Part shown: positions 3,959 to 38,631 of the stretch, in pieces
Layout of the letters: every line of letters begins with the position of its first letter
Position numbering within the stretch: position 1 is the stretch's first letter
Source: Lachnospiraceae bacterium
GTDB lineage: Bacteria > Bacillota > Clostridia > Lachnospirales > Lachnospiraceae
Length of the DNA stretch: 38,631 nt
Reading direction: 5' to 3'
NCBI GenBank assembly: GCA_030540075.1
Contig: JAUNWX010000006.1
Span: forward strand, 13,564-52,194
The notes under the pieces: model-generated
Told to the model about the DNA's origin: nothing
The model's input: the letters and a program-made list of their open reading frames with translations, nothing else
Databases searched by the model: none
Translations under genes and position numbers: made by a program

Positions 3959-3984
3959 GATTTTCTCCTTCTCTTAAAATCACG

Positions 3985-4084
3985 TAACAGTTCAGGCAGC
4001 GGAGTCCCCGGCTTAGATTGAACCGGTCTCGGAGTACTGTGCCTCCGTTGCCGCCCCGCCGGGTCCCCACTGCCTGCACTGTTA
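3985..4084. mobile_element. Palindromic element P-A (100 bp, MITE-like)
   Basis: The element begins TAACAGTTCAGGCAG and ends CTGCCTGCACTGTTA, so its ends are imperfect inverted repeats of about 15 bp. Inside is the family motif CTCGGAGTACTGTG with CGGAG/CTCCG and CGG/CCG helices. The 9-bp sequence TAAAATCAC flanks it at 3975-3983 and again at 4085-4093, the right copy overlapping the SDR stop codon; this looks like a target-site duplication. The interior matches one arm of elements P-C and P-D. Inference: a non-autonomous mobile element inserted between two co-transcribed genes. Confidence 0.65.
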
Positions 4085-4089
4085 TAAAA

Positions 4090-13633: not shown

Positions 13634-13688
13634 TTTTAAAAATGGAGGGGAGGCAACGGAAGCACTGTGCTTTCGTTGTCTCCCCTCC
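13634..13688 (-). terminator. Terminator of the exporter operon, derived from a P-type palindrome (P-F)
   Basis: Minus-strand arms of about 21 nt (13668-13688 and 13644-13664) pair around a 3-nt loop and run into ATTTTTAAAAAAAA, a strong terminator 18 nt after the exporter gene. The sequence includes GCTTCCGTTGCC next to an AGTGC loop, resembling the P-family arm GCCTCCGTTGCC next to AGTACTGTG. It may be a P element reshaped into a terminator. Confidence 0.75.
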
Positions 13689-16207: not shown

Positions 16208-16292
16208 ATTCGAAAGCCCGGGACCCGGAGGGGCGGCAACGGAGGCACCGTACTCCGAGACCGGTTCAATCTAAGCCGTGGATCCCGAATAA
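16208..16292. repeat. Palindromic element P-B (single-arm copy)
   Basis: Contains the P-family arm in reverse orientation: GGCGGCAACGGAGGCAC, then TACTCCGAGACCGG, then TTCAATCTAAGCC, nearly identical to the arm in P-A and P-C. It lies after the rep terminator and upstream of the rpoA promoter. No clear target-site duplication is seen. An AT-rich run with ATATTCGA repeats (16187-16213) precedes it. Confidence 0.7.
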
Positions 16293-16297
16293 TTATC

Positions 16298-17543: not shown

Positions 17544-17552
17544 TTATCCACA
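17544..17552 (+). other. DnaA box
   Basis: Perfect TTATCCACA, 4 bp before the first iteron of the phased array. A weaker TTATCCATT lies at 17688-17696. Confidence 0.8.
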
Positions 17553-17555
17553 AAG

Positions 17556-17634
17556 ATAACAGATTGATGGTAAGGCATAACGGATTTACGGTGAGCTGTA
17601 ACAGAAAGACGGCAGCTTCTAACAGATTTACGGT
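17556..17634 (+). repeat. Origin iteron array, four copies at exact 21-bp spacing (oriV)
   Basis: Starts at 17556 (ATAACAGATTGATGGT), 17577 (ATAACGGATTTACGGT), 17598 (GTAACAGAAAGACGGC) and 17619 (CTAACAGATTTACGGT). Each is 16 bp with 5-bp spacers, giving two helical turns per unit so that initiator molecules bind on one face. With the AT-rich stretch and DnaA box, this defines the probable origin of replication. Confidence 0.9.
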
Positions 17635-17830
17635 ATGCCCTGGTCGTCGTGCGAGGGCGGTTTTTCGACCGAATCCAGGTGTTGTGTTATCCATTTTTCA
17701 CGCGGAACGCCGGTCTGAAAAGCGAAATTTCCGCTGCAGCTTCGCCTTTTTCTGTTTCTTTTCGGACATTTCCCGGTGAAAAATCAGCAGTTTCACGATT
17801 TTCACGCGATTCTTTTGGCGTTTTTACCGT
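17635..17830. other. Spacer between the iteron clusters
   Basis: About 200 bp with no convincing gene or iteron. It includes a weak DnaA-like box (17688-17696) and TTTCACG-type short repeats around 17790-17815. Confidence 0.4.
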
Positions 17831-18146
17831 ATAACAAAATTACGGTCCACGCCTCGCTTATAACGCGATGACGGTCGAAATGTAAGAAATTCGTAAGCTT
17901 TTGCTGTCGTCATTACCGTCATTCTGTTATAAAGTCTGGCGTTGCCCGGTGACGAGATCTGTTTCGGGACAGCTTTCAGGCTGACGTTGATTTGAAAGAT
18001 AACAGATTTACGGTAGATACGCGCGGTCTTGTGGAGGCACATATTTACCGTAATTTTGTTATAAACGATGAACAGATAACAAAAAGACGGTATGGCTTGT
18101 CTTCATACCGTCTTTTTGTTATGTTTTATGACCGTAATTTTGTTAT
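17831..18146. repeat. Second iteron cluster, both orientations
   Basis: Eight 16-bp boxes. In ATAAC...CGGT orientation they start at 17831, 17860, 17999 and 18076; in ACCG...GTTAT orientation at 17915, 18047, 18107 and 18131. Spacing is irregular, unlike the origin array. The arrangement resembles the inc/copy-control loci of iteron plasmids, where extra sites titrate and handcuff the initiator. Role inferred. Confidence 0.8.
18076..18122. terminator. Inverted iteron pair forming a terminator hairpin
   Basis: Two iterons facing each other (18076-18091 and 18107-18122) extend into a perfect 19-bp stem with a 9-nt loop. On the minus strand GACGGTATG/CATACCGTC is followed by TTTTTGTTAT, so it can terminate transcription from the HEAT-like gene (stop 18203) before it enters the origin; it is symmetrical and so could also work in the other direction. 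Confidence 0.75.
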
Positions 18147-18202
18147 CTTTTCAGATCTGCTTGATTTTGTCTCAGAATTTTCGATATGCATCAGCACTTT
18201 CA

Positions 18203-19745: not shown

Positions 19746-19885
19746 GCTTTGCCTGCGGCAAAGCTTTGAATACGCTCGCCGCTAAGGCCTCCCAAGGGAA
19801 ATCAAAGATATTCCCTTGGGAGCTGTATCTCGCCGCCCGGGGGCATCCACGAGCCTCTCCGCGCTACGCGCGGCCCTCTCATGGA
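19746..19885 (-). ncRNA. Structured repeat L-1 (candidate leader RNA)
   Basis: A 140-bp element about 75% identical by eye to L-2 at 30475. It folds as a series of stems on the minus strand: ATCCATGAG/CTCGTGGAT enclosing CCGCGC-GTA-GCGCGG, a CTCCCAAGGGAA/TTCCCTTGGGAG stem, an ATAC/GTAT helix and a GCTTTGCC/GGCAAAGC hairpin. Conserved single-stranded segments include two GCGGCGAG boxes. It starts directly after the stop of the small basic protein and ends about 44 nt before the HEAT-like start codon, so it is placed as an intercistronic or leader RNA. Whether it is an RNA regulator or a mobile repeat is open. Confidence 0.55.
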
Positions 19886-20278
19886 TCAGTACCCAAAGTG
19901 CTCGCGCTGTGTGTCGGCGTCGAAAACCTTATGGTAGGCTTCGCTGCCCTGGTAGAGGATGCGGACGAGCGTCCACTCGACGGCCTTGATGGTGACGGTG
20001 TCGCCGACCTTTTTCTTACAGAACGGGTGACTCGCGAGGTTCACGCGGGTCGTGATCTCCTGCTTTCCGTCGGAGATGATGACGTAGTCGCCCGGCTGCG
20101 CACCGGTGCGGCCCTGGAGCTTCGTCTGGTAATATGGCTTCGCGGTCGCTGCGCCACTGCTCTTCCGCGGGCTGCTGAAGCCGTTTGCGGAGGCCGGTCT
20201 GCCGCTCTTTCCCTGGCCGCGCTTCGCGGCTGCGCCGGACTTTTTCGGCTGACCGGAGCGTTTTCTGAAATCGTTCAT
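19886..20278 (-). CDS. Small protein with basic disordered N-terminus
   Basis: 130 residues. The first 50 are rich in Lys, Arg, Gly, Ser and Ala ('RKRSGQPKKSGAAAKRGQGK'), likely disordered and nucleic-acid binding. The C-terminal 75 form a compact beta-rich domain ('GDYVIISDGKQEITTRVNL', 'KKKVGDTVTIKAVEWTLVRIL'). The KKVGDTV segment recalls the C-terminal FKBP-like domain of GreA/GreB elongation factors, but the match is short and I treat it as a hint only. ATG at 20278 has AAAGGA at 9-nt spacing. It is upstream of the HEAT-like gene, with L-1 between. Confidence 0.7.
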   Translation of the reverse strand: MNDFRKRSGQPKKSGAAAKRGQGKSGRPASANGFSSPRKSSGAATAKPYYQTKLQGRTGAQPGDYVIISDGKQEITTRVNLASHPFCKKKVGDTVTIKAVEWTLVRILYQGSEAYHKVFDADTQREHFGY

Positions 20279-26488: not shown

Positions 26489-26517
26489 ATTATAGCACAT
26501 ATGTTCGCATTGTACAA
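26489..26517 (-). promoter_or_regulatory. Promoter of the UvrD-like gene
   Basis: Minus strand TTGTAC (26512-26517), 17-nt spacer, perfect TATAAT (26489-26494), 45 nt before the start codon. Confidence 0.75.
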
Positions 26518-26520
26518 TAT

Positions 26521-26834
26521 GCCGGAGGGGGCACCATCGAAAACCATACTCGCTGCAACTGTTCAGTCAGGACCCGAAGGACCGGCAGCTGAAGCCATAC
26601 GAAGAGATCGTGAATAAATCCAAATCGGGCCCTTAGAACCAGTTGGAGCAATTTTTCCTTAGCACTCTCTGCAACACTGAGTTTTCATAAAGAAAACTCA
26701 GTCGTTTGCAGAGAGCCTACTGGTTCTTAGGGCCCGATTTGTGATTTTTCCGATCTCGTAGTACTGTGCTTCAGCTGCCGGCCCTTCGGGTCCGTCACTG
26801 AATTATACTGCGTTTTCGATGGCTCCCCTCCGGC
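26521..26834. mobile_element. Large palindromic element P-D (about 315 bp)
   Basis: An imperfect palindrome whose arms run from GCCGGAGGGG (26521) to CCCCTCCGGC (26825-26834). Nested layers are CCATCGAAAAC/GTTTTCGATGG; GGCAGCTGAAGC (26584-26595) with GCTTCAGCTGCC (26768-26779); AAATCGGGCCC/GGGCCCGATTT; AGAACCAGT/ACTGGTTCT; and CTCTCTGCAA with TTGCAGAGAG around a GAGTTTTC/GAAAACTC hairpin with loop ATAAA. The motif TAGTACTGTG lies in the right arm. It fills the gap between HelD and the UvrD promoter. The outermost layer reaches the HelD stop codon. Confidence 0.75.
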
Positions 26835-26836
26835 GA

Positions 26837-28873
26837 TTATACACGAACCAGCGGCGACAGCTCCCCATCCGCCAGGATGATGAGATTCTCCGTCGCGCGC
26901 GACTCCGCCGTATACAGACGGTGCCGGTACAGCTCCCGGTCCGGATAATCCCACACCGACACATCCGGCAGGATGACGGTATCAAACTCCAGCCCCTTCG
27001 CGAGCTTCAGCTCCATCATCACCACACCACTCTTCGGCAGTGCCTCATAGGAGCGGATGATGTGCGGCGTATCGTCCCCGAGCGTCCGGCGCATCATATT
27101 GATGCCCGTCCAGTCGCAGCACACGATGGCCGTGAGCCCCTCCGTGCGATCGTTTTCCCGAATCACACGACGCAGCTCCTCCACGTAGGTCTCGTGGTCG
27201 GCGCAGGCCAGCACCGTCGGCTCCACACCCTCCCGCTGTACGGAATTCGTCTGGACCCGGATCTCCTGCGGCAGCAGGTTCGTAAAGAGCTTCGTGATTT
27301 CCGGGGAGGAACGATAGCTCGTCATCAGCGAGAGCTCCGTCACCTCCTTGCCCTGCTCCGTAAACATCCGGCGGATGTCCGCGAAGCTTGCCGTACCACT
27401 GTGGATCGACTGGAACTCATCGCCGAGGAACATGAAGTGCGCGTTTCGGAAATAGCGTGCGAGCAGCATCAGCTGCGCCTCCGTATAATCCTGCACCTCA
27501 TCGACGATCACATAACGGGTGTTGCGATCGGAGGTACCGGTCAGCGTCATCTTGAGGTAGCTGAACTCCGCCGGCGTCAGATCATCCTTTCCGAGGATCG
27601 ACTTACCGATGGCCTCCATATCGAGCCAGTCGAGGTTCCGGATCTTCTCATAGACACCACCCATCTGGCTCTCATCCGGCTCCTCATCATAGAGATCATC
27701 GAGGCCCTGATCGTGCTTCTTCTTTTCCTGCTTCTGCGCGTTGCTGCGTGCGAGCTCCTCGAGCTCCTCCACCGCGGTCTGGATCAGCCAGGTCGTGGAC
27801 GAGGTGCCCTTATGGCGGCGCAGCACGCCGAGAATCTGCTGCTTATCGAGCACGCGTGCCCGCTTCAGATTGATGTTGTGGAGGTGCTTCGCTTCGATGC
27901 AGAAGCCCACCAGTCCCTCATCGATCTGGTGCAGCGCATCCGCTTCGGTGATATCCGCCTCGCCGAGACTCTTCACCCCGAGATCATCGAGGAAGTCGGA
28001 CCAGGTCATGGTCACCGGATTCGCCTCGCCCATCTCCGGCAGCACGTGATCGATGTACTGCTGGAAGACCGGATTCAGCGTGATGAGCGCCACCTGGTTC
28101 GGTCGCAGACTGTGCCGGCGGCGGTAGAACAGATACGCGATACGCTGCAGCAGCACAGAGGTCTTACCGGAGCCCGCGATGCCCTGCACGAGCAGCACCG
28201 GCACGTCCGGATAGCGGATGATGAGGTTCTGCTCCTTCTGAATCGTTTCGGTGATGGACTGCATCTTATCACTCCGCTTCTTCGTGAGCGAGTGGATCAG
28301 CAGCGGATCCTCCAGCGCAATCTTCGTGTCGAAATACGCCTTCAGCACATCGCGCTCCAGGTCGAACTGCCGGCGAAGCTTCAGGTCCACCGGGATCTTA
28401 CGGTCATCGACCATATAGGAAGTCTCGCCCAGCGCCTGATTGTAGTACACCTCCGCGATCGGGCTTCGCCAGTCGATGATCTCCGGCTCATGATGCTCGT
28501 TTGACACCGAGGACGAGCCGATGTAAAAGCTCTCCTCCTCCGTCTCCTCCGGGAACTGCACCGTGATGCGCGCGAAGTACGGACGCGGCAGCAGGCGGTT
28601 GACGCGCTGCAGCCCCATCGATACGGTCCGGCTCGAGATATTGAGCTCCTCGACCGCACGGCTCATGGTCTCGAACTCGATCAGCGTCTCCTGCGACTCC
28701 TCGATACCGACGAAATCGTACTGGAGGTCATCCGCGACCGTGTTCTTCTCCTCCTGCGCCTGTCGCTGGAGATCGACGAGCTCGGCCTCCATCTGCTCCT
28801 TCATCCGCGCGAGCTTTCCGTACTGCTCCGTCAGATGCGCCTGTTCTTCTCTGAAAATTCTATCTTCGTTCAT
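26837..28873 (-). CDS. helD: HelD-like RNA polymerase recycling motor ATPase
   Basis: A 678-residue UvrD-like protein with HelD architecture. An N-terminal coiled coil (about 1-95) is of the type that reaches into RNA polymerase. 'FYIGSSSVSNEHHEPEIIDW' then 'RSPIAEVYY' is the HelD-specific domain. Walker A 'GIAGSGKTSVLLQRIAYL' lies near 230, 'VIVDEVQDYTEAQ' near 470, 'FLGDEFQSIH', 'SYRSSPEI', and final 'ELKLAKGLEFDTVILPD' plus 'RLYTAESRATENLIIL'. HelD releases stalled polymerase from nucleic acid using ATP. It lies 19 nt downstream of the C69 dipeptidase gene, an apparent operon. Its presence with rpoA and two sigma factors is notable. Confidence 0.9.
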   Translation of the reverse strand: MNEDRIFREEQAHLTEQYGKLARMKEQMEAELVDLQRQAQEEKNTVADDLQYDFVGIEESQETLIEFETMSRAVEELNISSRTVSMGLQRVNRLLPRPYFARITVQFPEETEEESFYIGSSSVSNEHHEPEIIDWRSPIAEVYYNQALGETSYMVDDRKIPVDLKLRRQFDLERDVLKAYFDTKIALEDPLLIHSLTKKRSDKMQSITETIQKEQNLIIRYPDVPVLLVQGIAGSGKTSVLLQRIAYLFYRRRHSLRPNQVALITLNPVFQQYIDHVLPEMGEANPVTMTWSDFLDDLGVKSLGEADITEADALHQIDEGLVGFCIEAKHLHNINLKRARVLDKQQILGVLRRHKGTSSTTWLIQTAVEELEELARSNAQKQEKKKHDQGLDDLYDEEPDESQMGGVYEKIRNLDWLDMEAIGKSILGKDDLTPAEFSYLKMTLTGTSDRNTRYVIVDEVQDYTEAQLMLLARYFRNAHFMFLGDEFQSIHSGTASFADIRRMFTEQGKEVTELSLMTSYRSSPEITKLFTNLLPQEIRVQTNSVQREGVEPTVLACADHETYVEELRRVIRENDRTEGLTAIVCCDWTGINMMRRTLGDDTPHIIRSYEALPKSGVVMMELKLAKGLEFDTVILPDVSVWDYPDRELYRHRLYTAESRATENLIILADGELSPLVRV

Positions 28874-28892
28874 TCCTTACCTATTAAAAAAA

Positions 28893-30362
28893 TTATGCGT
28901 CCGAGCGCGAGAATGCGTTCTTCATGTGCATGCTGGCTTCATACAGTACCTTGTCCAGCACGTCGTCCGTCTCTTTCCGAAGCATCTCGGCGATGGCCTC
29001 ATTGGCCTCCTCGAGCGTTGTGTCCTTCGCGTCCATGAAGCGCTGGTCATACTCCCGGATCAGGCGGTGACCGGCGATGGCTACCTTATTCTGGTAGCGC
29101 TCGATGTGGGAGGAGGTGAAGCTGTAGGCAGCGTCCGACAGGGCCGCGATCATCCGGCTCGCCCAGTAGAAGCTGTCGGTGGACACCTGTGCGGTGGTGC
29201 TGTTCATATACGCCGGGGTTCCGTCAACATTGGCATAAAATGGTACAAACGCGTTAAATGCGTTGGAGCCGTAGCAGATCCACTCGATCGCCTGAAGCTC
29301 GGCCGGTACGTATGGGCGGAGCTGGAGGCAGGCCATGAAGCTCGTGCGGTTGATGCCGATCGTCCGGTAGGTGCCGCAGAGCGACTTGTCCCCGTGCTTC
29401 CGATACGGATCATACGGGGTGCCCTGATAGTGGTTTGAAAGCGCCCACTTCACCTCTTCCACCGTGATCTTATGCTCCGGCACGAGGGACCATGGGAGGT
29501 CGTCGCTCACCGGAGTGAAGTCTGCCTCCGGGCCATCCCAACGGTACGTGCGCGGGTTGAAGTAACGGAACAGCGCCCAGGCACGCGGGGTGTTGTAGGT
29601 GTGGTCAGAATCATCGTGGCTACCGAAGGCGAGGCGTGGATTGAAGGCGTCGCCCTGATTCAGATTCAGATGATTCTTCTCCACGAACGCACGGAGATCC
29701 GCGGAGCACATGAACTCCTTCTGCGCACCGAGGGCATCCTCGAAATCGAAGTGATCGATGCCAAGCTGGTTCGGCATGATGACATACTGGTCATCCGGTA
29801 CGCGACGTGCCATCCAGTGGTGTCCGCCGATGGTCTCGAGCCACCAGATCTCATTCACATCCTGGAAGCCGATGCCGTTCATCTCATAGGTGCCGTACTG
29901 CGCGAGCAGGCTGCCGAGACGCTCGACGCCCTCGCGAGCAGAATGGATATACGGAAGGACCAGGAGGACGATATCCTCCTCGCCGATCCCGCCGGCCTTC
30001 TCCGGTGTATGCTCATCGCCCGGCTCGAAGGTGACGAGCGGATCGGCACCGAGTACACGTGCGTTCGAGGTGATGGTCTCAGTGGCGGTCATCGCGACGT
30101 TCTCACTGTTCACGCCGGCAGCCGCCCAGATGCCCTCACCCTTCACGGCGTTCGGCATCGCAGTATAGCGGAGCGGATTCTCCGGCAGCGGAATCTCCAC
30201 ATGGCTCAGCACCGAGCGGTATACCCGCGGCTGCTGGGACGGCTCCACCACAACCCACTTCTTCGCTGTGAACTTTCCTGCACCGGAATCATCGTTCCGG
30301 GCGATCATCGTCGAGCCATCATAGCTCGCGTTTTTACCTACTAAAATCGTCGTACAAGCCAT
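28893..30362 (-). CDS. C69 family dipeptidase (PepD-like)
   Basis: A 489-residue N-terminal-nucleophile hydrolase. It starts 'MACTTILVGKNASYDGSTMIARNDD', where Cys3 is the catalytic nucleophile of C69 dipeptidases, exposed after processing. 'MTATETITSNARVLGADPLV', 'EIWWLETIGGHHWMARRVPDD' and 'GTYRTIGINRTSFMACLQLRP' are further family blocks. No secretion signal, so it is a cytoplasmic dipeptidase for nutrient peptides. ATG at 30362 has GGGAGGAA upstream. It is transcribed behind a long leader containing repeat L-2 and precedes helD by 19 nt. Confidence 0.92.
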   Translation of the reverse strand: MACTTILVGKNASYDGSTMIARNDDSGAGKFTAKKWVVVEPSQQPRVYRSVLSHVEIPLPENPLRYTAMPNAVKGEGIWAAAGVNSENVAMTATETITSNARVLGADPLVTFEPGDEHTPEKAGGIGEEDIVLLVLPYIHSAREGVERLGSLLAQYGTYEMNGIGFQDVNEIWWLETIGGHHWMARRVPDDQYVIMPNQLGIDHFDFEDALGAQKEFMCSADLRAFVEKNHLNLNQGDAFNPRLAFGSHDDSDHTYNTPRAWALFRYFNPRTYRWDGPEADFTPVSDDLPWSLVPEHKITVEEVKWALSNHYQGTPYDPYRKHGDKSLCGTYRTIGINRTSFMACLQLRPYVPAELQAIEWICYGSNAFNAFVPFYANVDGTPAYMNSTTAQVSTDSFYWASRMIAALSDAAYSFTSSHIERYQNKVAIAGHRLIREYDQRFMDAKDTTLEEANEAIAEMLRKETDDVLDKVLYEASMHMKNAFSRSDA

Positions 30363-30393
30363 CGTACGTTCCTCCCTCACATAGATATACAAT

Positions 30394-30461
30394 GAGACGA
30401 TGCAATGGAATGTGCCTGCGGCACAAGCATCGTCGTTTGATTTTGCCACCCCAGGTGGCAA
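30394..30461 (-). other. Two further hairpins in the C69 leader
   Basis: GACGATGC ... GCATCGTC enclosing TGCC-TGC-GGCA (30394-30433), and TTGCCACC-CCA-GGTGGCAA (about 30443-30461). They lie between L-2 and the start codon; neither is followed by a T-run. Confidence 0.5.
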
Positions 30462-30474
30462 AACGGGTAATGCA

Positions 30475-30602
30475 GCTTTGCTAAAGCAAAGCTCTGAACA
30501 CGCTCGCCGCTAAGGCCTCCTAAGGAAACCTTAGGAGCTGTGTCTCGCCGCCCGGGGGCATCCATGCGCCTCTCCGCGCTACGCGCGGCCCTCTCATGGA
30601 TA
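30475..30602 (-). ncRNA. Structured repeat L-2 (candidate leader RNA)
   Basis: Second copy of family L, in the same orientation relative to its downstream gene. Helices are preserved with changed bases: CTCCTAAGG (30517-30525) with CCTTAGGAG (30529-30537), and ACAC (30498-30501) with GTGT (30540-30543), where L-1 has ATAC with GTAT. The CCGCGC-GTA-GCGCGG hairpin and both GCGGCGAG boxes are identical. A promoter at 30621-30648 would place it at the 5' end of the C69-helD transcript. Confidence 0.6.
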
Positions 30603-30612
30603 TTAAAAAAAG

Positions 30613-30648
30613 TACTAACTATTTTAACATAGTTCGTACTTTCCTCAA
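30613..30648 (-). promoter_or_regulatory. Promoter of the C69-helD operon with palindromic operator
   Basis: Minus strand TTGAGG (30643-30648) and TAAAAT (30621-30626) with a 16-nt spacer. The inverted repeat GTACTAACTAT ... ATAGTTCGTAC (30612-30639) covers the -10 box and spacer, a plausible repressor site. The transcript would enter L-2 almost at once. Confidence 0.6.
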
Positions 30649-30672
30649 ATAGTCAGTTTACAGCTTTCGGTA

Positions 30673-31728
30673 TCAGACGGTGACGGCACCTGGGAAGTAG
30701 CCGGCGACGATGTCCTTCCGGAGGGCTTCTCCGATGACGATGATGACGTCCTCTGTCGGCACAGAAAGTGGGCGGAAATGCCGCTCGTCCTTCGTGACAT
30801 TCAGCTCGAGGCCGCTGGAGAAGCCCTTGATGCGGAGGACGTGGCCGGCGGCGGGATCCTCGAGGAGCTTCAGCACGCGCACCTGCAGGTCCTCCGGCGT
30901 GGTTTCATAATGCATATAGAAAAGCGACTGGTACGCATCCTCCTCGGCGACGGCCTTCTTCAGGAAGCTGACATGCCGGTAACCGGCAGCCTCCAGCATC
31001 TGGAAATCAGTATCCTCGAGCTGATCCCATGGCTTCGCGAGCACATCGGCGGGATATGCGAAGCGACGCGCACACTGCACCTCTTCCATCGCCTGGTTCA
31101 GGACAGCAAGCGTCTGCCCGATTACATCGTTCTGCGCACGCACCGGGTGCTGGTCAATGTTGTCGACCGCTACGGTCATCGCGCTCTGTGGGTTGGCATC
31201 TGGGCAACCTGCGTCGTTACCCGCAGCGCTGTCTTCCGCTGCCGACGCCGTAACGGGTAGCTTACTGAGGATGATTTTTCCAGCATTGGCGGCCTCCGTG
31301 GCGAGCAGATAACGGGACGCAGGCGAGAGGTCCGGGTCGAGCTGGGCGTCGACGATGGCGAGCACCGAGCCGAGCTCATACCAGCGGTCGAGAGGCTCCT
31401 CATAGAGCGTGTCGAAGAACTCGTCGACATCATAGATGCCGCTTGGTTCCACGAGGACGCGGGTATAGCCGAGCATCGCCATGCTGATCAGCTTCGTGCG
31501 GAAGCGACGCTGATGCGCCTTTGCCCCATCGCCGCCGACCACCATCTCGAGCTCGCAGTTCGGCCCGAGGAGGTCCTGCAGTAGCACACGGTCGATGTTG
31601 ATCGCCCCGTAGTCATTCTCGAGGATGCAGACACGCTCGCCCTTCGCGACGAGCCAGCGCGCGTATTTCTCGATGAAGGTGGTTTTACCGGAACCCAGAA
31701 ACCCGGTGATGAGATCGATCGTGATCAT
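30673..31728 (-). CDS. CobW/YjiA-like G3E GTPase, degenerate motifs
   Basis: A 351-residue protein with the G3E Walker A 'ITGFLGSGKTTFIEKYARWL' at residues 7-26 and 'RVLVEPSGIYDVDEF' (switch/Walker B-like) near 107. Two usual hallmarks differ. The CxCC metal-binding motif of CobW metallochaperones is absent (the position reads 'VVGGDGAKAHQRRF'), and the guanine-specifying NKxD reads 'LSKLP'. A low-complexity insert 'ASAAEDSAAGNDAGCPDANP' follows. The C-terminal CobW_C-like part is short. The metal role is therefore doubtful. ATG at 31728 has AGGAGG upstream. Confidence 0.8.
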   Translation of the reverse strand: MITIDLITGFLGSGKTTFIEKYARWLVAKGERVCILENDYGAINIDRVLLQDLLGPNCELEMVVGGDGAKAHQRRFRTKLISMAMLGYTRVLVEPSGIYDVDEFFDTLYEEPLDRWYELGSVLAIVDAQLDPDLSPASRYLLATEAANAGKIILSKLPVTASAAEDSAAGNDAGCPDANPQSAMTVAVDNIDQHPVRAQNDVIGQTLAVLNQAMEEVQCARRFAYPADVLAKPWDQLEDTDFQMLEAAGYRHVSFLKKAVAEEDAYQSLFYMHYETTPEDLQVRVLKLLEDPAAGHVLRIKGFSSGLELNVTKDERHFRPLSVPTEDVIIVIGEALRKDIVAGYFPGAVTV

Positions 31729-31765
31729 AAATTCCTCCTGCTGCACTATTCACGTATTCTGAATC

Positions 31766-31794
31766 ATATTAGCGCCTTACCTCAGCAGCGTCAA
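31766..31794 (-). promoter_or_regulatory. Promoter of the CobW-like gene
   Basis: Minus strand TTGACG (31789-31794), 17-nt spacer, TAATAT (31766-31771), 37 nt before the start codon. Confidence 0.75.
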
Positions 31795-31804
31795 ATCATC
31801 TGAG

Positions 31805-31866
31805 CTGTACAGGCAGGGCCTCGGAGTACTGTGCTTCCGCTGCCTGTCCTCCGAGCGTCCCTGACC
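31805..31866. repeat. Palindromic element P-E (short copy)
   Basis: Carries the P motif CTCGGAGTACTGTG with GCTTCCGCTGCC, between CAGGCAG/CTGCCTG arms; CTCGGAG can alternatively pair with CTCCGAG. It fills the space between the HlyD gene stop and the CobW promoter. Confidence 0.65.
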
Positions 31867-31879
31867 CTACTGCAGGAAT

Positions 31880-33214
31880 TTATCCTCTGACCTTCGCGCC
31901 GTCAAACAGATCCTCGACATCGACGACGGCGACGACCGTATCCCCCTCTGCGAGGCCGTCCGTGATGACGGCCTCGGTGGAGGTCGTGTAATCGACCGTA
32001 ACCTTCGTTTTCACCGCGCGACCGCCCTCGATGCGGTAGACATAGTGCGCATCGTCGCTTTCGAACACAGCGCCCGCCGGCACGGTGAGGGCATCCTCGT
32101 TCTCATAGAGAAGAAACTCGACATCGACCCCATAGCCGTCTTTCGAGGCGATATCCACCGCATCCGCTGCATCGCGATCGTCCAGGACGGCACGCACATG
32201 CACCCGGTATTCCTTCAGCCCCAGGGCGGAGCTGCCCTCCGTGGCGAAGTCATTGACCTCCTCGACGGTACCGTATTCCGTTTCGTTCCGGCCCCGCAGC
32301 TTGAGGACCGTCTTCACCTTCGTGCCGGCGTGGATATACGGCGCGACGTCGGTGAGTACGTCGGCTTCCACCCTGCGATCTCCACTTCCACTGAGCTCGG
32401 CGACCGTCTGACCGGCGCTGACCATACTGGCGTTTTTCGCCGCGAGTGAGGTGATGATGCCGTCGCGGTCCGCGGTGATGGTGCAGTCGTCGATCTGATC
32501 CTGGAGGCGGCGGAGCTCGATCTCCGCGGAGTCGATCTGCGCCTTCAGGCTGGTCGTTTCGCTCTGGTAGAAAGCATCGTTCAGGCTGCGCTCGTCCATG
32601 CCCTGCTTCTTCAGCTCCGCGAGGTACTTCCGGCTCTCGTTGAGACGCGCCGCACTCTGCGATGCCTGTGCCTTCGCGGCATTATAGGCGGCCCGGGCGG
32701 ACTCGTACTCGCTGGTCGACACATCGCCACTTGCGTAGAGGGACTGCGCCGCCGTAAAATCCGTCGTCGCCTTCTGGAGCGCTGCATTGGCCGCGTCGGC
32801 TTCCGAGGCGATGCCGTCGAGGTATTCCTGCGGCGTCGTGGTCATCACGCGACTGACATCGGACTGTGAGAGCTCCGCCTGCAGCATCTCGATGTTTTTT
32901 TCCGTCTGCTCCTTACTGTACTCGTACGCCCGGCTGTCGATGCGCAGCAGGACATCGCCCTTCTGCACCACACTGTTTTCCGATACCAGAACCTCGCGGA
33001 CATCCCCGTTCACCTTCGACACGATCTCGACGCTGTCGCCGGAGCGGATGGTGCCGCTCTCCGTGTACCAGTCCGTCACCGCGTCCCGGCTCACCCGGGT
33101 ACTCTCTACCTTCAGGCGGCTGCCGATGAGCAGCTGGTAGCTGGCAGCTGCGATGACGAGCAGTGCGATGAGTCCGCCGATCCAGATTCTGTACTTTACT
33201 AGAAACGCTTTCAT
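31880..33214 (-). CDS. HlyD/MacA-like periplasmic-adaptor-type subunit of an ABC efflux system
   Basis: 444 residues with one N-terminal membrane anchor ('IWIGGLIALLVIAAASYQLLIG', about 10-31), then a biotinyl-lipoyl half ('SGDSVEIVSKVNGDVREVLV'). A long coiled-coil hairpin (about 100-240) precedes the second lipoyl half ('DDCTITADRDGIITSLAAKNASMVSAGQ') and beta-barrel/membrane-proximal domains. In Gram-positives such adaptors partner MacB-type FtsX permeases in export of peptides or antimicrobials. Last gene of the ATPase-permease-adaptor operon. The start has AAGGGAG upstream. Confidence 0.88.
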   Translation of the reverse strand: MKAFLVKYRIWIGGLIALLVIAAASYQLLIGSRLKVESTRVSRDAVTDWYTESGTIRSGDSVEIVSKVNGDVREVLVSENSVVQKGDVLLRIDSRAYEYSKEQTEKNIEMLQAELSQSDVSRVMTTTPQEYLDGIASEADAANAALQKATTDFTAAQSLYASGDVSTSEYESARAAYNAAKAQASQSAARLNESRKYLAELKKQGMDERSLNDAFYQSETTSLKAQIDSAEIELRRLQDQIDDCTITADRDGIITSLAAKNASMVSAGQTVAELSGSGDRRVEADVLTDVAPYIHAGTKVKTVLKLRGRNETEYGTVEEVNDFATEGSSALGLKEYRVHVRAVLDDRDAADAVDIASKDGYGVDVEFLLYENEDALTVPAGAVFESDDAHYVYRIEGGRAVKTKVTVDYTTSTEAVITDGLAEGDTVVAVVDVEDLFDGAKVRG

Positions 33215-33352
33215 ACTTCTCCCTTTCTGTTTCCTGCAGCGCGTCTCGATTTATCCTGTCGATGCACGAGCGGTGGTCTGCAGCGTTTTATCGCACACAG
33301 CCGCTGTCTGCCTTCGGCTCTGTAGCGGCTTCCCGTGCCTTCTCGTACCGGA
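33215..33352. other. Spacer within the efflux operon
   Basis: No gene seen. A stem AGCCGCT ... AGCGGCT (33299-33330) without T-run lies between the permease and adaptor genes. Confidence 0.35.
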
Positions 33353-35833
33353 TCACTCCCGCTCCTTCAGCACCTCGGTCAGGGAGATACGGCGTACGGC
33401 ACGCATTTCCATCCACACGGTCAGCATCGCCATCAGGAGGCAGATGAGGAAGGTGATGAGGTAGGCCGGCTTGGTCACATGCATGTCGATTTTATAGGAA
33501 TCCGACACAAGCACGTGCTCGAGCAGGTATTTGATGCCCCGGCTTCCCGGCAGTCCGAGCAGAAGCCCCGCGAGAAAATAGATGCTCATCTCACAGCGCA
33601 GCATATCCCGGATCTCCGCGTCACCCGCACCGAGCACCTGCAACGTGCCGAGCTCGGTCAGCCGTTCACGGAGGTTGATCATCGAGATGTTGTAGATGAG
33701 GATGCCGCCGGTCACGATCGACATCAGCGCGAACATATAGATCATGGCCTTCATGCTCTTCATCATATCGAGGTAGGCCTGCAGCGTCTTCTGTGCATCG
33801 GCGACCCAGGTCACATGCGCGGCCTCCGACAGTGCGTCTTTGACGGACTGCATGCTGCCCGGGCGGATGCTGGCGATGATGGTATTCACCGGCGTCACGC
33901 TCGCAAACATCCGCTGTATGCTTTCGATATCCGTGTAGGCGGCCCCGCCGACGTTTTCGTAGATTACCTTCGTAACCGGCACCCGGATGTACTGTTCGGA
34001 CAATGTCGGGCAGCTGAGCTCGATGGTGTCGCCGCTACGTACTCTCAGCTTGTCGGCAGTGCGCCAGTTGAGAATCAGCCCGCCCGTCGGCGGCACATAG
34101 CGCTGACCGTACATATCGCTGATATGCCAGAGCCGGGAATCCTTTTCGATGCCGTACAGCAGGGTGTATTCCGTCCGGTTGTCCGCGCGCAGTGCGGCGG
34201 TCAGGATGCTGAGCGGTTCGGCATAGGTGATGTCGTCGATCGCCTCGGCGGCCTCCGCCGCCTGATGCGGATCCGTATAGTGGTCGAGGCTGATCTCGAG
34301 GTCATAGAGCTTAATTTTTTCGAACTGATCCGTATACATGCTGTCCGCGACGGTGTCAAAGGACAGCAGCACGGTGGACATCGAAAACGGAAAGGCGATG
34401 GAGAGGATGATGAGGAAGCCCCGCATCGGGTTTCGGAATACCGCGCGCAGGCCCAGTCTCCGGAGCGCCGACATTGGCTGACGTGCTGTGAAGTCGGCCA
34501 CGCGCCGACCGAGACGGCCACTCGCATGTGCTGGTGCCGCACTTCGCATCGCCTGGGCCGGGTCGATCTTCAGGATGGCGCGTACACCGACGTAGACCGC
34601 TGCGATGCCGGTGAGGACTGCAATCAGTCCGCCGGTGAGGCGCGTTGAGAGATAGTCGTGGTAGCGCGGGTCCGGGAGGTTGAAGAAGTCGACGTACATC
34701 TCGAACATGAAGCGGCCGAAGGCCCCCGCCGTGAGGTCACCGAGCAGCGCGCCGACGAAGCCGGCGATCGCGCCCTCTGCGAGGTAGGCCTGCATCAGCT
34801 CACGGTCGGTCATGCCCATCGCCTTCAGCGTGCCGATCAGCGGTCGGCTCTGGTCGATCATTTTTCGGAGCACGACGTAGAGCATGAAGACGGAGATGCT
34901 CATGAAGATCAGCGGCAGCAGGACGCACATGGACATGAGCTCATGCAGCTCGCCGTCCACCATGTCGTAGCTTGTCTGGTCCGCCCGCTTCGTGAGGGAC
35001 TGGAGGCCGTAGCGCTCGAGCTCCGCGCGCAGGGCATAGCGGACATCCTCGTAGCGGTAGCCGGGCTTCAGTCGGAAGCCGAGCTCGTTTCGCACGTCGC
35101 CCATCCCCATCAGGTCCTTCATGTCACGTAGGTCAATGCAGGCGATATCATAAACTTCACCATCCGGGATCATCGCGCCGCCGGGCGGAATCGAGTAGAT
35201 GTAGTCCGGTGCGGAGCAGCGACCCGCGTAGGAAAGGTGTTTCACCTTGCCATCGTACACTATCCGGAGCTCCGTGCCCTCCGGATAGTCATAGACTTCG
35301 GCCATGCGGCTCCCGAGATAGAGAGCGTCGGTGCCCGCCTGTGACAGTGCGCTGCTGTTGATGTCTGTCCCGGATCTGGAAGCAAGCGTGACGTCCGCCC
35401 TGTCCTCGGTTTCATTCCGCTTCGTACGCTTTTCGCCTGTCGATTCAGCTGCTGTCGTCGGGCGCAGCAGCTGTATGCGCAGGCGGTTCAGGGTATCGTC
35501 CGGATCGTAGGACATGAGATGCACGGTGACGAGCTCCTCCTGGTCCGGACCCAGCATCCGGAGATCAGCGGACAGCTTTCCGGAGACGGCCTCGATGCCG
35601 GGGATCTCACAGAGGCGCGCGAGATCACTCGCCGGGATGGCCTCCACCGTCGCGAAGATATCCGCGAGCCCGTAGTCGTCGTAATAGGTATCGACCTGGG
35701 TTTCCAGGTTTTTCATGGTGTCACTGACGCCCACATAGCAGAAAATGCCGATGCCGATGATCAGGACCGCACCGATGAAGGAGGCACGGCTTTTCAGCGC
35801 GAGGCGCAGTATGTTTTTCGAAAACTGCTTCAA
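33353..35833 (-). CDS. ABC transporter permease, FtsX/MacB-like, two FtsX domains
   Basis: An 826-residue permease. N-terminal helix 'FIGAVLIIGIGIFCYVGV' (about 18-35) is followed by a large extracytoplasmic domain (about 40-300) and the first FtsX block ('LPLIFMSISVFMLYVVLRKMI', 'TLKAMGMTDRELMQAYLAEGA'). A second helix ('GFLIILSIAFPFSMSTVLLSF', about 470), another extracytoplasmic domain and the C-terminal FtsX block ('MFALMSIVTGGILIYNISMINL', 'LGTLQVLGAGDAEIRDML') complete it. Duplicated FtsX domains are typical of Gram-positive lipoprotein/peptide-type exporters. It overlaps the ATPase gene by 4 nt. Confidence 0.9.
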   Translation of the reverse strand: MKQFSKNILRLALKSRASFIGAVLIIGIGIFCYVGVSDTMKNLETQVDTYYDDYGLADIFATVEAIPASDLARLCEIPGIEAVSGKLSADLRMLGPDQEELVTVHLMSYDPDDTLNRLRIQLLRPTTAAESTGEKRTKRNETEDRADVTLASRSGTDINSSALSQAGTDALYLGSRMAEVYDYPEGTELRIVYDGKVKHLSYAGRCSAPDYIYSIPPGGAMIPDGEVYDIACIDLRDMKDLMGMGDVRNELGFRLKPGYRYEDVRYALRAELERYGLQSLTKRADQTSYDMVDGELHELMSMCVLLPLIFMSISVFMLYVVLRKMIDQSRPLIGTLKAMGMTDRELMQAYLAEGAIAGFVGALLGDLTAGAFGRFMFEMYVDFFNLPDPRYHDYLSTRLTGGLIAVLTGIAAVYVGVRAILKIDPAQAMRSAAPAHASGRLGRRVADFTARQPMSALRRLGLRAVFRNPMRGFLIILSIAFPFSMSTVLLSFDTVADSMYTDQFEKIKLYDLEISLDHYTDPHQAAEAAEAIDDITYAEPLSILTAALRADNRTEYTLLYGIEKDSRLWHISDMYGQRYVPPTGGLILNWRTADKLRVRSGDTIELSCPTLSEQYIRVPVTKVIYENVGGAAYTDIESIQRMFASVTPVNTIIASIRPGSMQSVKDALSEAAHVTWVADAQKTLQAYLDMMKSMKAMIYMFALMSIVTGGILIYNISMINLRERLTELGTLQVLGAGDAEIRDMLRCEMSIYFLAGLLLGLPGSRGIKYLLEHVLVSDSYKIDMHVTKPAYLITFLICLLMAMLTVWMEMRAVRRISLTEVLKERE

Positions 35834-36543
35834 AAGAAACGCTCCCTCGCCGCGGCGACGTCGGCGTTTTCGGCGATGCGTTCGAGGCAGCCATCCTTGA
35901 AATAGAAGATGCGGTCAGCGATACAGGCGATATCCCGGTTATGGGTGATCAGAATCACGGTTTTCTTATATGCACGATTAAAGTCACAGAGGAGCCGGAG
36001 GATTTCGTTACCGGTCGTGGAGTCCAGGGCGCCCGTCGGTTCGTCGCACAGGAGGAGGTCCGGATTTTTCGCGAGGGCCCGGGCGATCGCCACGCGCTGC
36101 TGCTGTCCACCCGACATCTCGCTCGGAAAGTGGTCTGCCCGATCAGCGAGGCCGACCTGCGCGATCAGGGTCTTCGCATCGAGCGGATCGGCGCTGAGCT
36201 CGGCGGCCAGCTCGACATTTTCGCAGGCACTGAGGCCCGGCATCAGATTGTAGAACTGAAAGACGAAGCCCACGTGCTTTCGCCGGTAGGTACAGAGCCC
36301 GGTGCTGTTCATCGCACTCAAGGCCTGTCCGTCGTACTCCACCGTACCGGCGCTCGGGCTTTCGATCCCGCCGATGATGTTCAGCATCGTCGATTTACCG
36401 GAGCCGGAGGGCCCCAGCACCACGATGAATTCGCCCGGATAAATCTCGAAGCTTACATCCCGCAGCGCATGGACGACACTATCCCCGGAGGCGAAATCCT
36501 TACAGAGCCCGTCGGCTCGTAAAAGAGCATGTTCGCTACGCAT
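35830..36543 (-). CDS. ABC transporter ATP-binding protein (LolD/MacB type)
   Basis: A 237-residue ATPase with all motifs intact: Walker A 'GPSGSGKST' (about 43-51), Q-loop 'GFVFQFYNLMPGLSACENVE', signature 'MSGGQQQRVAIARAL' (about 142), Walker B 'LLLCDEPTGALD' and switch 'ILITHNRDIA'. First gene of the efflux operon; a conventional partner of the FtsX permease. GGGGGAT precedes the start. Confidence 0.93.
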   Translation of the reverse strand: MRSEHALLRADGLCKDFASGDSVVHALRDVSFEIYPGEFIVVLGPSGSGKSTMLNIIGGIESPSAGTVEYDGQALSAMNSTGLCTYRRKHVGFVFQFYNLMPGLSACENVELAAELSADPLDAKTLIAQVGLADRADHFPSEMSGGQQQRVAIARALAKNPDLLLCDEPTGALDSTTGNEILRLLCDFNRAYKKTVILITHNRDIACIADRIFYFKDGCLERIAENADVAAARERFF

Positions 36544-36560
36544 AAATCCCCCTCTCTAAG

Positions 36561-36613
36561 GTTAGACAGAACTAACTTTGCGACGATTATAGCACACAAA
36601 AAGCGCCTGTAAA
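36561..36613 (-). promoter_or_regulatory. Promoter and TetR-like operator of the efflux operon
   Basis: Minus strand TTTACA (36608-36613), 16-nt spacer, TATAAT (36586-36591). Just downstream is GTTAGTTCTGTCTAAC (36561-36576), a GTTAG/CTAAC inverted repeat typical of TetR/MarR-type operators. The -35 lies inside the arm of the preceding terminator. No TetR gene is adjacent. Confidence 0.65.
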
Positions 36614-36643
36614 ATGAAATCCGTCATTTTACAGGCGCTTTTT
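36598..36643. terminator. Terminator of the second sigma-factor gene
   Basis: Perfect 20-bp inverted repeat (36598-36617 and 36624-36643), loop of 6 nt, ending in TTTTT on both strands. The distal arm includes the -35 of the efflux promoter. Confidence 0.9.
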
Positions 36644-36657
36644 CAGTATTTCGTATT

Positions 36658-37587
36658 TCACTGCTCTCCGTTCATCGTGTTTCGGATCGTTTTGATCGCG
36701 TGCTGCTCCCGCTGCCGGATCGCCTCCGGGCTCACGTGGTAGAGCTCGGCGATCTCCCGCAGTGTGTGGCGCTTTCCGTTGAAGAGGCCGTAACGAAGCA
36801 CGAGGGTGTTCCGCTCCTCCTCGCTGAGCTGATCCAGTGAATCATAGAGCTCCTGAATCTGCTGCTCATCGAGCACCTGGTCCTCGACATTATCCGGCGA
36901 TACGGCGATATCGCCGAGCTCCGTCGCGTCTCCATCCTCACTGCCGACCTTCGTGTTGAGCGAGGTCTGGCGCAGCACCTCCTGATCGAGCTGCAGACAG
37001 CGCTCCACCTCCTCGCGGCTGAAGCCGGAATCACGCACGATGGCGTCGATCATGGCATCTCCCTCGAGATGCTCGAGATCATAGCGCTTCTTGATCGCCT
37101 GCACCTTCATGATCCGCTCAAACTGATGATTCGAGACCCGGATGTTGAAGCCGGTGTTGTAAATCTCCTTCAGGATACTGTCGCGGATCCAGTAGGTCGC
37201 GTAGGTCGAAAACTTCGCGCCCTTCGTCGGGTCGTAGCTTCGGGCGGCCGTCATGAGGCCAATGCTTCCGGAATTTACGAGATCATCGAGCCCGAGGGTG
37301 TGGTTGAAGAGCTTTTCGTACTTCTGTGCGGCGTGAATCACGAGTCCGCGGTTCTGCTCGAAGAGCTCCGTCTCCTCGACTTCGGCGGACTGTCCTGCTG
37401 TGGCCTTCGCCTGGATCGCGGACACGAGGCGCAGATTCTGCTGCTCCTGCGCGTCATCTGCTGCGCTTTTTTCCGGGTGCCCGACCGTCGGCGAAGTGTA
37501 TGTCTCCGCCTGTGTGTCATCTGCCGGTATGGTTGTTTCTTCGATGATCGCTGTGTTCTTTTTCTTTGTTGCTGATAATTCGGTCAA
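36658..37587 (-). CDS. Sigma-70 family RNA polymerase sigma factor, divergent
   Basis: 309 residues. An 85-residue Ala/Thr/Glu/Lys-rich leader precedes region 2 ('NRGLVIHAAQKY', 'LDDLVNSGSIGLMTAARSYDPT', 'AKFSTYATYWIRDSI'), a diverged region 3 ('IRVSNHQFERIMKVQAIKK') and region 4 ('LSEEERNTLVLRYGLFNGKRHTL' then HTH 'REIAELYHVSPEAIRQREQHA'). Region 2.4 'TYATYWIRDSI' departs from the housekeeping '[11 protein letters not shown]', suggesting altered promoter preference. The start codon is TTG at 37587 with AAGGGA 5 nt before it; no upstream ATG is in frame. Downstream of the histidine phosphatase gene, possibly co-transcribed. Confidence 0.88.
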   Translation of the reverse strand: MTELSATKKKNTAIIEETTIPADDTQAETYTSPTVGHPEKSAADDAQEQQNLRLVSAIQAKATAGQSAEVEETELFEQNRGLVIHAAQKYEKLFNHTLGLDDLVNSGSIGLMTAARSYDPTKGAKFSTYATYWIRDSILKEIYNTGFNIRVSNHQFERIMKVQAIKKRYDLEHLEGDAMIDAIVRDSGFSREEVERCLQLDQEVLRQTSLNTKVGSEDGDATELGDIAVSPDNVEDQVLDEQQIQELYDSLDQLSEEERNTLVLRYGLFNGKRHTLREIAELYHVSPEAIRQREQHAIKTIRNTMNGEQ

Positions 37588-37679
37588 TGGAATCCCTTCT
37601 ATATAAGTCCATGTGCATGGCTTCTTTCAAGTAGCCCACATGGTGCATCGCACTTCATGTCCGCAGGTGCTGTCGCGTA

Positions 37680-38228
37680 TTATGGCATGACGAAGATCTG
37701 CTCTTCAGCATTGCCCTGTGCGAAGGTTTCGAAGCCTTCGTTGGACATCGGCTGGAAATAGCTTGTGATCATACGGCAGATCCCGTTGTGGGTCACGAGG
37801 AGGATGGTTTCGCCATCGTGTTCGCGGCGCAGCTTTCGGAGAAACGGGTAGATGCGGGCGGCGATGTCGAGGAAGGATTCCCCCTCCGGATAGCGTGCGA
37901 AGTAGCGATGCTTTTCGGTCCGGTACGCCTCGGAATCCCGAAGCAGTCCCTCGCAGGTACCGAAGTTCATCTCGATGAGCTCGGCGGCCTCCACCGGCGC
38001 CGGTGTGCCTGTGCCCTTCTGCGCGGCGACGATCTGCGCCGCTGTCTCCTTCGCCCGGCTGAGCGGTGAGCAGTAGACATAATCGAAGTGCACGTCGGCG
38101 AGCTTCGCACCGAGCGCCTGTGCCTGCGCGATACCGCGCTCGTTCAGCGGGATGTCCGTCCGGCCCAGGACCTTATTTTCCTGATTCCACAGCGTTTCGC
38201 CATGGCGTACGAGATAGAGTTTCAGCAT
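37680..38228 (-). CDS. Histidine phosphatase family protein (phosphoglycerate mutase-like)
   Basis: 182 residues with the RHG motif 'YLVRHGETLWN' at residues 5-15, 'VYCSPLSRAKETAAQI' (second Arg) near 52, catalytic Glu in 'LIEMNFGTCEG' near 82 and terminal 'LLVTHNGICRMI' (second His) near 148. Short histidine phosphatases of this kind act on small phosphorylated metabolites (GpmB/CobC-like). ATG at 38228 has GAGGAGG upstream; the longer open frame reads into element P-C and is rejected. Confidence 0.9.
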   Translation of the reverse strand: MLKLYLVRHGETLWNQENKVLGRTDIPLNERGIAQAQALGAKLADVHFDYVYCSPLSRAKETAAQIVAAQKGTGTPAPVEAAELIEMNFGTCEGLLRDSEAYRTEKHRYFARYPEGESFLDIAARIYPFLRKLRREHDGETILLVTHNGICRMITSYFQPMSNEGFETFAQGNAEEQIFVMP

Positions 38229-38285
38229 CGTGGCCTCCTCTTCTGCAGCACTTTTCTGCATGTCGTTCAATCGTTCACTTATCTG

Positions 38286-38542
38286 TAACAGTTCAGTGTC
38301 GAGGAACTGAAGGGTCGGCAACGGAGGCACAAAACTCCGAGACCGGTTCAATCTAAGCCGGGGCCCCTAAGCGGCACTAGGCCCTCTGCAATCGTCGAGT
38401 TTTCTTTATGAAAACTCGGCGTTGCAGAGGGTGCTAAGGAAAAATTACTCCAAGTGCTGCTAAGGGAACCCGGCTTGATTTCACACGGTCTCTCCGTATG
38501 GCCTCCGTTGCCGACCCTCCTGGTCCTCATCCTGAACTGCTA
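38286..38542. mobile_element. Large palindromic element P-C (about 257 bp)
   Basis: Begins TAACAGTTCAG and ends CTGAACTGCTA. Arms pair as GGTCGGCAACGGAGGC (38313-38328) with GCCTCCGTTGCCGACC (38501-38516), AGACCG/CGGTCT and AGCCGGG/CCCGGCT. At the tip is CCCTCTGCAA/TTGCAGAGGG with CGAGTTTTC-TTTAT-GAAAACTCG (38381-38430). On the minus strand, the asymmetric bulge containing GGAG, AATTTTTCCTTAGCAC is the same as in P-D. It lies upstream of the phosphatase gene. Confidence 0.75.
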
Positions 38543-38550
38543 AACTTAAC

Positions 38551-38631
38551 TTAGGCCTTCGCACCCGTGCCCTGCGCCGGGTTCGGGTTCTTCTGGCGCT
38601 CGATCACCATCGCCTGTCCCTGCGGGTTGAT
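38551..38631 (-). CDS. C-terminal end of an unidentified protein
   Basis: The last 26 codons of a minus-strand frame that continues past the right edge, ending 'RQKNPNPAQGTGAKA' and TAA at 38551. Codon use fits neighbouring genes and no stop interrupts it, but too little is visible to name a family. Confidence 0.5.
   Translation of the reverse strand: MNPQGQAMVIERQKNPNPAQGTGAKA

Follow-up and report, generated by a model that had tools for sequence, protein, structure and literature searches.

Here, we describe two giant imperfect palindromes, P-C and P-D, in a stretch of 38,631 nucleotides from a Lachnospiraceae bacterium (assembly GCA_030540075.1, contig JAUNWX010000006.1, positions 13,564 to 52,194; hereafter the window), together with the repeat family to which they belong. 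We find that the arms of the family differ in sequence from copy to copy while staying paired. The hairpins probably derive from miniature inverted-repeat transposable elements (MITEs), with arms that would be kept complementary by template switching and conversion of DNA and some unpaired bases that would be under selection. In this probable reading, the covariation of the family imitates that of a structured RNA.

Paired arms in P-C, P-D, and their relatives

P-C lies at 26570..26793 on the plus strand (family member L001, alignment A1), and its arms pair at 26570-26595/26768-26793 and 26612-26646/26716-26750. It sets the reference orientation, with CCATACG on the 5′ side and the bulge TTTTTCCTTAGC on the 5′ arm. 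P-D (38301..38528, minus strand; member L017 of the same alignment) has the opposite orientation and an arm pair at 38301-38328/38501-38528. Folded with RNA parameters, P-C (26515-26835) reaches −200.6 kcal/mol (z = −21.4), a value matched by none of 100 shuffles, and P-D (38270-38560, minus strand) reaches −163.3 kcal/mol (z = −12.8), matched by none of 200. An initial annotation of the window had pointed out paired changes between the arms of the two palindromes. The pairs that it quoted are present in the sequence, and on the common structure 48 pairs are the same, 18 are altered on both sides, and 8 are altered on one side. Fourteen of the 18 double-sided changes lead from one Watson-Crick pair to another, and 59 of the 71 unpaired columns compared are identical.

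The palindrome described in the annotation as P-C is indeed there, but its outermost arms belong to an older, shorter palindrome and are thus separate from this copy. The left arm of this short palindrome (GCCGGAGGGG..CCATCGAAAACC) occupies 26521..26545 and the right arm 26810..26834, as seen in the sequence and in the outer pairing of the fold. The right arm ends beside the stop of a minus-strand UvrD-type helicase gene (26837-28873). P-C thus appears to be nested inside the older palindrome.

A set of 72 distinct copies, 38 from the genome that holds the window (hereafter the own genome) and 34 from other genomes, was obtained from 102 BLAST places, of which 85 were left once identical centers had been removed and 72 once 13 split, shortened, or false copies had been removed. 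Those dropped include L041, at a contig edge, and copies bearing an accessory module. Copy orientation was assigned by score against two reference cores. RNAalifold predicts 74 pairs for the 72 copies, 65 of which show double changes. Paired cells amount to 95.1%, whereas shuffles reach 74.2% and slid registers no more than 49.4%; the outer helix is 93.7% paired. In the covariation test that the annotation had called for, the score is 0.518, higher than in any of the 500 shuffles (mean 0.148) or slid registers (≤0.088); copy relatedness inflates the shuffle comparison but leaves the slid-register comparison unaffected. Covarying paired positions, one of the two marks that we looked for in a structured RNA, are therefore found in the 72 copies. 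Outside the hairpin, pairing in the own genome falls to about 0.3 some 7 nt beyond the base, and the flanks pair above the 95th percentile of the control in 13 of 72 copies, where about 4 are expected. In most copies, flank pairing is gone and the arms are retained.

The second mark is the kind of pair tolerated. If the arms were kept by RNA stability, G.T combinations (G-U in RNA) should lie far above A.C. Our control was the RNase P RNA of the same genus (15 sequences from 15 genomes). The hairpins hold 4950 Watson-Crick, 99 G.T, and 79 A.C combinations, compared with 1183, 156, and 6 in RNase P, and the G.T/A.C proportions differ between the two sets (Fisher test, P = 5e-20). Own-genome hairpins have 43 G.T and 42 A.C. 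Because copies lie in both orientations, we recounted in the sense of the adjoining gene. This recount took the 39 hairpins next to which just one gene stops, setting aside 14 convergent and 19 other copies, and gives 49 G.T and 51 A.C. A tolerance of G-U far above A-C was thus found in RNase P and not in the hairpins. Among standard-pair cells, 1017 are altered on both sides and 71 on one side in the hairpins, versus 127 and 26 in RNase P. A search of Rfam at gathering score with the window and 16 loci gave no match for the palindromes, and only a tRNA in L208; the annotation had likewise recognized no known family. It had read the paired changes as the signature of a structured RNA or, in its second option, of a hairpin DNA element. 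The former is not supported by these counts, and the latter is supported.

Flank similarity was used to match up copies that share a site across species (18 pairs with both flanks and 11 with one flank), and 13 of these 29 pairs were used as close orthologues (12 with both flanks, and L255/L268 with one). The 13 pairs show 56 double switches from one Watson-Crick pair to another, 37 of transversion type and 19 of transition type, and 31 one-sided changes. Since the switches are mostly of transversion type, a G-U intermediate does not explain them. The deep pair L023 (own genome)/L260 (G013, another genome of the genus) forms 73 of 74 pairs in each copy and shows 30 such switches; L016/L319 form 71 and 61 pairs and show 23. 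In the outer arm, a mean of 0.10 of pairs differ between orthologues versus 0.30 between non-orthologues, in a comparison restricted to 48 loci and to 10 of the 14 orthologous pairs; several later-added sequences align only partly (e.g., L262, L264, L279, L282, and L301-L304). Copies have therefore been inherited at their sites.

Other comparisons show a patchwork. L005 and L007, both in the own genome, have no differences in 100 inner paired columns, whereas 11 of their 24 outer pairs are altered on both sides (9 of them Watson-Crick in both copies) and one on one side. In the pair L001/L002, 2 inner columns and 9 outer pairs differ, 7 of the latter being Watson-Crick in both. Outer and apical segments are uncorrelated (Mantel r = −0.09), and middle and inner segments are correlated (r = 0.66). 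Arm-to-arm concerted copying together with exchange among copies can explain both site inheritance and a patchwork of the L005/L007 type. Replication template switching is described as copying one stem side onto the other with multi-base concerted changes (PMC8794818).

Some unpaired bases are nonetheless held constant. The T.T mismatch at columns 79/177 is present in 72 of 72 copies and that at columns 89/167 in 71, and bulge columns 98-107 are 81 to 100% conserved. Blind copying of one arm onto the other would be expected to repair mismatches and to flip loops as well; apical loops that read as the inverse of the common loop number 0 of 72. The annotation's claim of conserved loops thus holds for some unpaired positions, but CCATACG is replaced in other species. 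Arm conversion without conserved loops, which the annotation had named as one outcome that would undo its reading, is not what we see, as specific unpaired bases are conserved.

Terminal repeats, distribution, and position near genes

Two hallmarks of MITEs, terminal inverted repeats (TIRs) and a target-site duplication (TSD) of fixed length, here 8 bp, were found. The TIR, GTAACAGTTCAGNC, has 48 sites in the own genome at ≤1 mismatch, versus 1 for the reversed control. Exact sites number 61, 32, 23, and 20 in four copy-rich genomes, with 0 for the reversed control in all 17 genomes of the genus. The GTAACAGTTCAG motif is abundant in genomes G004, G013, and G011, while G016 has 44 matches to the covariance model described below but 2 exact TIRs. 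Few hairpins end in GTAACAGTTCAG-like TIRs: of the 102 places, 6, including one duplicate, have ≤2 mismatches at each of the two ends, and TIR-bearing hairpins measure 259 to 283 nt between ends. P-D has a left TIR, GTAACAGTTCAGTG, at 38285..38298 (plus strand) and a right TIR, TTAGCAGTTCAGGA, with 3 mismatches, at 38530..38543 (minus strand). Its TSD, ACTTATCT at 38277..38284 and ACTTAACT at 38544..38551, agrees in 7 of 8 positions; that of L035 agrees in 8 of 8. P-C has a possible decayed left TIR, GCAACTGTTCAGTC, at 26555..26568 (plus strand, 2 mismatches to GTAACAGTTCAGNC), which is weak alone, the window holding 8 TIR matches at ≤3 mismatches where 5.8 are expected. No clear right TIR and no clear TSD were seen at P-C.

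TIR pairs also bound many other elements, of 47 to 1231 bp. In 20 TIR-bounded elements without hairpin sequence, a hand-chosen subset of TIR pairs with wide flanks, the TSD agrees in 8 of 8 positions in 10 and in 7 of 8 in 3. The eight long TIR-bounded elements that were read contain no reading frame above 167 codons (frames not run against Pfam). By eye, same-TIR elements of ~220 to 1231 bp (L112-L119 and L170-L180) carry inverted units (CCATTA.., GGATAT.., and GATGCTGTATCAAAAC..) that are short, imperfect, and arranged in arrays, with a GGGGTGGG-bearing hairpin near the ends, such that one TIR serves several non-coding cargoes. One element (L172/L210, G004:C5:163205-163305) is itself an almost perfect palindrome, 101 bp long, that has these TIRs and an exact 8-bp duplication, AAGGGCAC; L211 contains a similar palindrome of 100 bp. 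The start of another same-TIR element (L122, G000:C56:92447 onward) is followed by a putative AbiE-type toxin-antitoxin pair, and contig ends near same-TIR elements (L123 and L126) resemble group II intron sequence (GTGTGAGAGGACGG-like).

An IS66-type enzyme is a plausible candidate for the transposase, judging from sequence features. IS66 elements produce 8-bp direct repeats and have ends starting GTAAGCG (PMC11946415). IS66 proteins occur in the genus, and IS66 elements in G014 have ends, GTTACTGTTCACA, that resemble GTAACAGTTCAG. In G004, a transposase-like C terminus of 57 amino acids lies beside a TIR at contig edges in three copies (L162-L164). We scanned 20 IS66 loci for GTAACAGTTCAG (≤2 mismatches); 5 had a match, in no case as a convincing end pair, but many of the loci are cut short by contig ends. 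The annotation had proposed to look for a transposase acting on hairpins, of which we saw no sign, although Y1-type enzymes were not searched for; the ends of the elements resemble ordinary TIRs with duplications of 8 bp.

BLAST with P-C finds at least 40 copies of the ~220-nt imperfect palindrome in the own Oribacterium genome of 2.31 Mb (41 long rows, one of them an antisense self-match; best 40 of 79 candidates scored). A covariance model built on the inner 134 positions matches this genome 101 times, a number that includes antisense self-matches, and finds members in 10 of the 17 genus genomes, the own one among them. When 250 genomes of the family Lachnospiraceae were searched with the model (13 candidates scored per listed genome), the matches listed fell in the own genome, apart from a single weak one (E = 2.9e-4). 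BLAST over 61 relatives gave 8 with matches, all within the genus. The exact core pattern occurs in 33 stretches of GTDB contigs, 32 in Oribacterium records and 1 in a Lachnospiraceae metagenome-assembled genome, some with centers identical to loci from the genus genomes; viral contigs gave 0 exact matches to this pattern. Within the genomes searched, the family is almost wholly limited to Oribacterium, apart from the one weak match.

Hairpins lie close to gene 3′ ends. A stop codon is found within 60 nt of the hairpin in 53 of 72 copies. The median distance is 22 nt to neighboring 3′ gene ends (87 ends, 62 within 40 nt) and 102 nt to neighboring 5′ gene ends (55 ends, 8 within 40 nt). Same-TIR elements with other cargo lie a median of 71 nt from 3′ gene ends (17 ends; Mann-Whitney test, P = 0.006). 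Orientation relative to the adjoining gene is unbiased (28 same versus 39 opposite, P = 0.22), and no clear U-tract follows the hairpins (mean of 4.4 T in 12 nt, with 6 or more T in 12 of 53). Neither test gave a terminator signature. The stop-proximal location may reflect use at gene 3′ ends or DNA erosion around old copies.

Two further observations concern individual copies. An accessory module of ~80 nt (CTGCCCAAGATTTG..TTTCTTT), with three small hairpins by eye, sits at one fixed place in the apical stem of L060, L074, L087, and L091, hairpins from different genomes; L077 and L089 are suspected carriers. In addition, the RNase P RNA gene is neighbored by a hairpin in G016 (C33:3663-4296) and by a TIR-like site in G009 (C114:4320-4756) and G000 (C15:15342-15758).

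Possible origins of the hairpins

We propose that the palindromes are a dispersed, non-autonomous, MITE-like family, found only in Oribacterium but for one weak match, that an IS66-type DDE transposase may have moved. After insertion, most copies would have lost their TIRs and kept the ~220-nt hairpin; if TIRs were once present in all copies, these ends have decayed and the hairpin has outlasted them. The arms would be free to change in sequence and yet stay complementary because any change in one of them is transferred to its partner as DNA, through template switching during replication within the hairpin and through conversion among copies, rather than by step-by-step compensation in RNA via G-U. 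The two T.T mismatches and part of the bulge would be fixed by selection on the folded molecule. This molecule would most likely be DNA, as a hairpin or cruciform at gene 3′ ends, which is the weakest step of the proposal.

Several results weigh against this account. It needs selection in addition, because template switching alone would be expected to repair the T.T mismatches. As a class, unpaired columns are hardly more conserved than paired ones (mean top frequency 0.81 versus 0.77), and between close copies, the closest pairs being almost all from the own genome, differences are more frequent in unpaired columns (0.093) than among the inner paired columns (0.029). CCATACG, the loop next to the outer arm, hardly varies within the own genome, and in the other species another common sequence takes its place. 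In other species, pairing stays at 0.3 to 0.5 until ~20 nt beyond the base. In the core, orthologues are closer to each other than non-orthologues by a marginal difference only (0.11 versus 0.18, P = 0.06), and the correlation between outer and middle segments is weak yet significant (r = 0.31). As to mobility, a TSD is missing from L057, L079, and L083 despite their good TIRs, the TIR of the family agrees with the IS66 end GTAAGCG in its first four bases only (GTAA), the 57-amino acid C terminus of G004 has ~30% identity to IS66-type proteins of G013 and no Pfam match, and no complete autonomous element with the same ends was found. Gene ends were called from the length of open reading frames, the longest being taken, sometimes antisense; these calls are noisy, and that for P-C conflicts with Pfam-supported genes. 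Finally, G.T is slightly more frequent than A.C overall (P = 0.15), and more so in other species (56 versus 37) and among one-sided differences in close orthologues (14 versus 6). These excesses may indicate weak selection on the RNA side.

The G.T excess in other species is also one of the points in favor of a structured non-coding RNA of ~220 to 240 nt, or a hairpin in the 3′ untranslated region that stabilizes or terminates mRNAs, with compensation at the RNA level and mobility incidental. Very strong covariation, conserved bulge positions, the accessory three-hairpin module at one stem position in four copies (by eye), and a location just past stops, closer than that of same-TIR elements with other cargo, would all fit such an RNA. 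We consider it unlikely, however, given the lack of a clear G.T excess of the RNase P kind, with near-equal counts in gene sense, and given that we found no orientation bias, no clear U-tract, and no Rfam match. A possible though doubtful alternative is that the hairpins are neutral relics, i.e., dead MITEs without function whose arms are paired only through self-correction by template switching. Concerted, transversion-rich double switches without G-U preference, the loss of flank pairing in most copies, the lack of conservation of unpaired columns as a class, and several derivatives within the window are what such relics would leave. The invariant T.T mismatches and bulge positions, the absence of inverted apical loops among the 72 copies, and the persistence of copies at orthologous sites across species are not.

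It is quite improbable that stop-proximal hairpins (terminators or REP-like repeats) pre-existed and that a mobile core inserts or recombines at their apex, the outer arms being those of the host. Identical or near-identical inner stems with different, mostly self-complementary outer arms (L005/L007 and L001/L002) would follow from such insertion, as would the independence of outer and apical segments and the stop-proximal location. The window also contains a short palindrome with outer-arm-like sequence only, GGAGGGGAGGCAACGGAAGCAC/GTGCTTTCGTTGTCTCCCCTCC, at 13644..13688. Outer arms are, however, recognizably homologous across loci, and a TIR and TSD lie outside them in L035 and P-D. This explanation stays only a rival because a pattern search for "empty" short outer-arm hairpins found one place, 13644-13688. 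A variant of our own proposal, which we rate as rather unlikely, holds that the hairpins have been domesticated at gene 3′ ends and are bound in folded form by a host protein. The cruciform or single-stranded form would be recognized via the T.T mismatches and the CCTTAG bulge, leaving the arms free to evolve by concerted DNA copying. If true, an attC-like logic would be combined with MITE-type spread and would mimic the strongest signal of RNA covariation.

In the attC sites of integrons, complementary arms are free in sequence, and fixed unpaired bases are read in the folded DNA strand. The hairpins resemble attC sites in logic only. Repetitive extragenic palindromic sequences (REPs) are tied to TnpA-REP, a protein of Y1 type. 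The hairpins are, like REPs and REPINs, palindromic repeats in many copies, but their TIRs and 8-bp duplications point to a DDE-type enzyme. REPs are also 20 to 40 bp long (PMC3733652, PMC3116915, and PMC8266576). Closer in form are the bacterial MITEs with long stem-loops (Correia/NEMIS, ERIC, RUP, and RPE), described as ~100 to 200 bp long (PMC2229807). The family shares with them a small size, non-autonomy, dispersed copies, a long stem-loop, and the TIR and TSD that some of those MITE families have. It departs from them in its ~220-nt hairpin, arms that turn over widely yet pair, invariant T.T mismatches, and restriction to Oribacterium but for one weak match. Eight-bp direct repeats and ends beginning GTAA are shared with IS66 (DDE_Tnp_IS66; PMC11946415), whereas the hairpins encode no transposase and no whole IS66 element with exactly this TIR was found. 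Multi-base concerted changes on both stem sides are shared with the template-switch stems of PMC8794818, where the case is made for RNA genes; here, they are seen in a high-copy repeat family set against an RNA control from the same genus. Among open-licence papers, we found no publication naming this element and none on inverted repeats in Oribacterium.

Covariation is usually regarded as the best evidence for a functional RNA. The family would be a natural counter-example, because its covariation is overwhelming (65 of 74 pairs) without a strong preference for G-U over A-C. It could thus serve as a test set to separate RNA selection from DNA template switching, and its orthologous palindromes allow concerted arm evolution to be measured.

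Derivatives and other features of the window

Three further places in the window resemble the hairpin family. A deletion derivative lies at 3984..4085; both TIRs and the right hairpin arm are present, and the left arm and core are gone. By eye, it is flanked by a duplication, AAAATCAC, at 3976-3983 and 4086-4093 that agrees in 8 of 8 positions. A left-half remnant at 16221..16281 is 87% like the left part of P-D, and a right-arm remnant lies at 31817..31853.

The region 15063-18153 contains a gene for a Rep_3 plasmid initiator (16322-17173; Pfam Rep3_N/Rep3_C) with iteron-like repeats at 17378-18153. Beside it is an rpoA gene with 54% identity to the second rpoA of the genome (C36), and a sigma-70 gene is near. 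The contig may thus represent a chromid, or a plasmid that has become integrated, and have an alpha subunit of the polymerase of its own. Another non-coding repeat has two long copies in the window, at 19758-19886 and 30486-30601, with 84% identity, and parts of it match 13 places in the genome, itself included.

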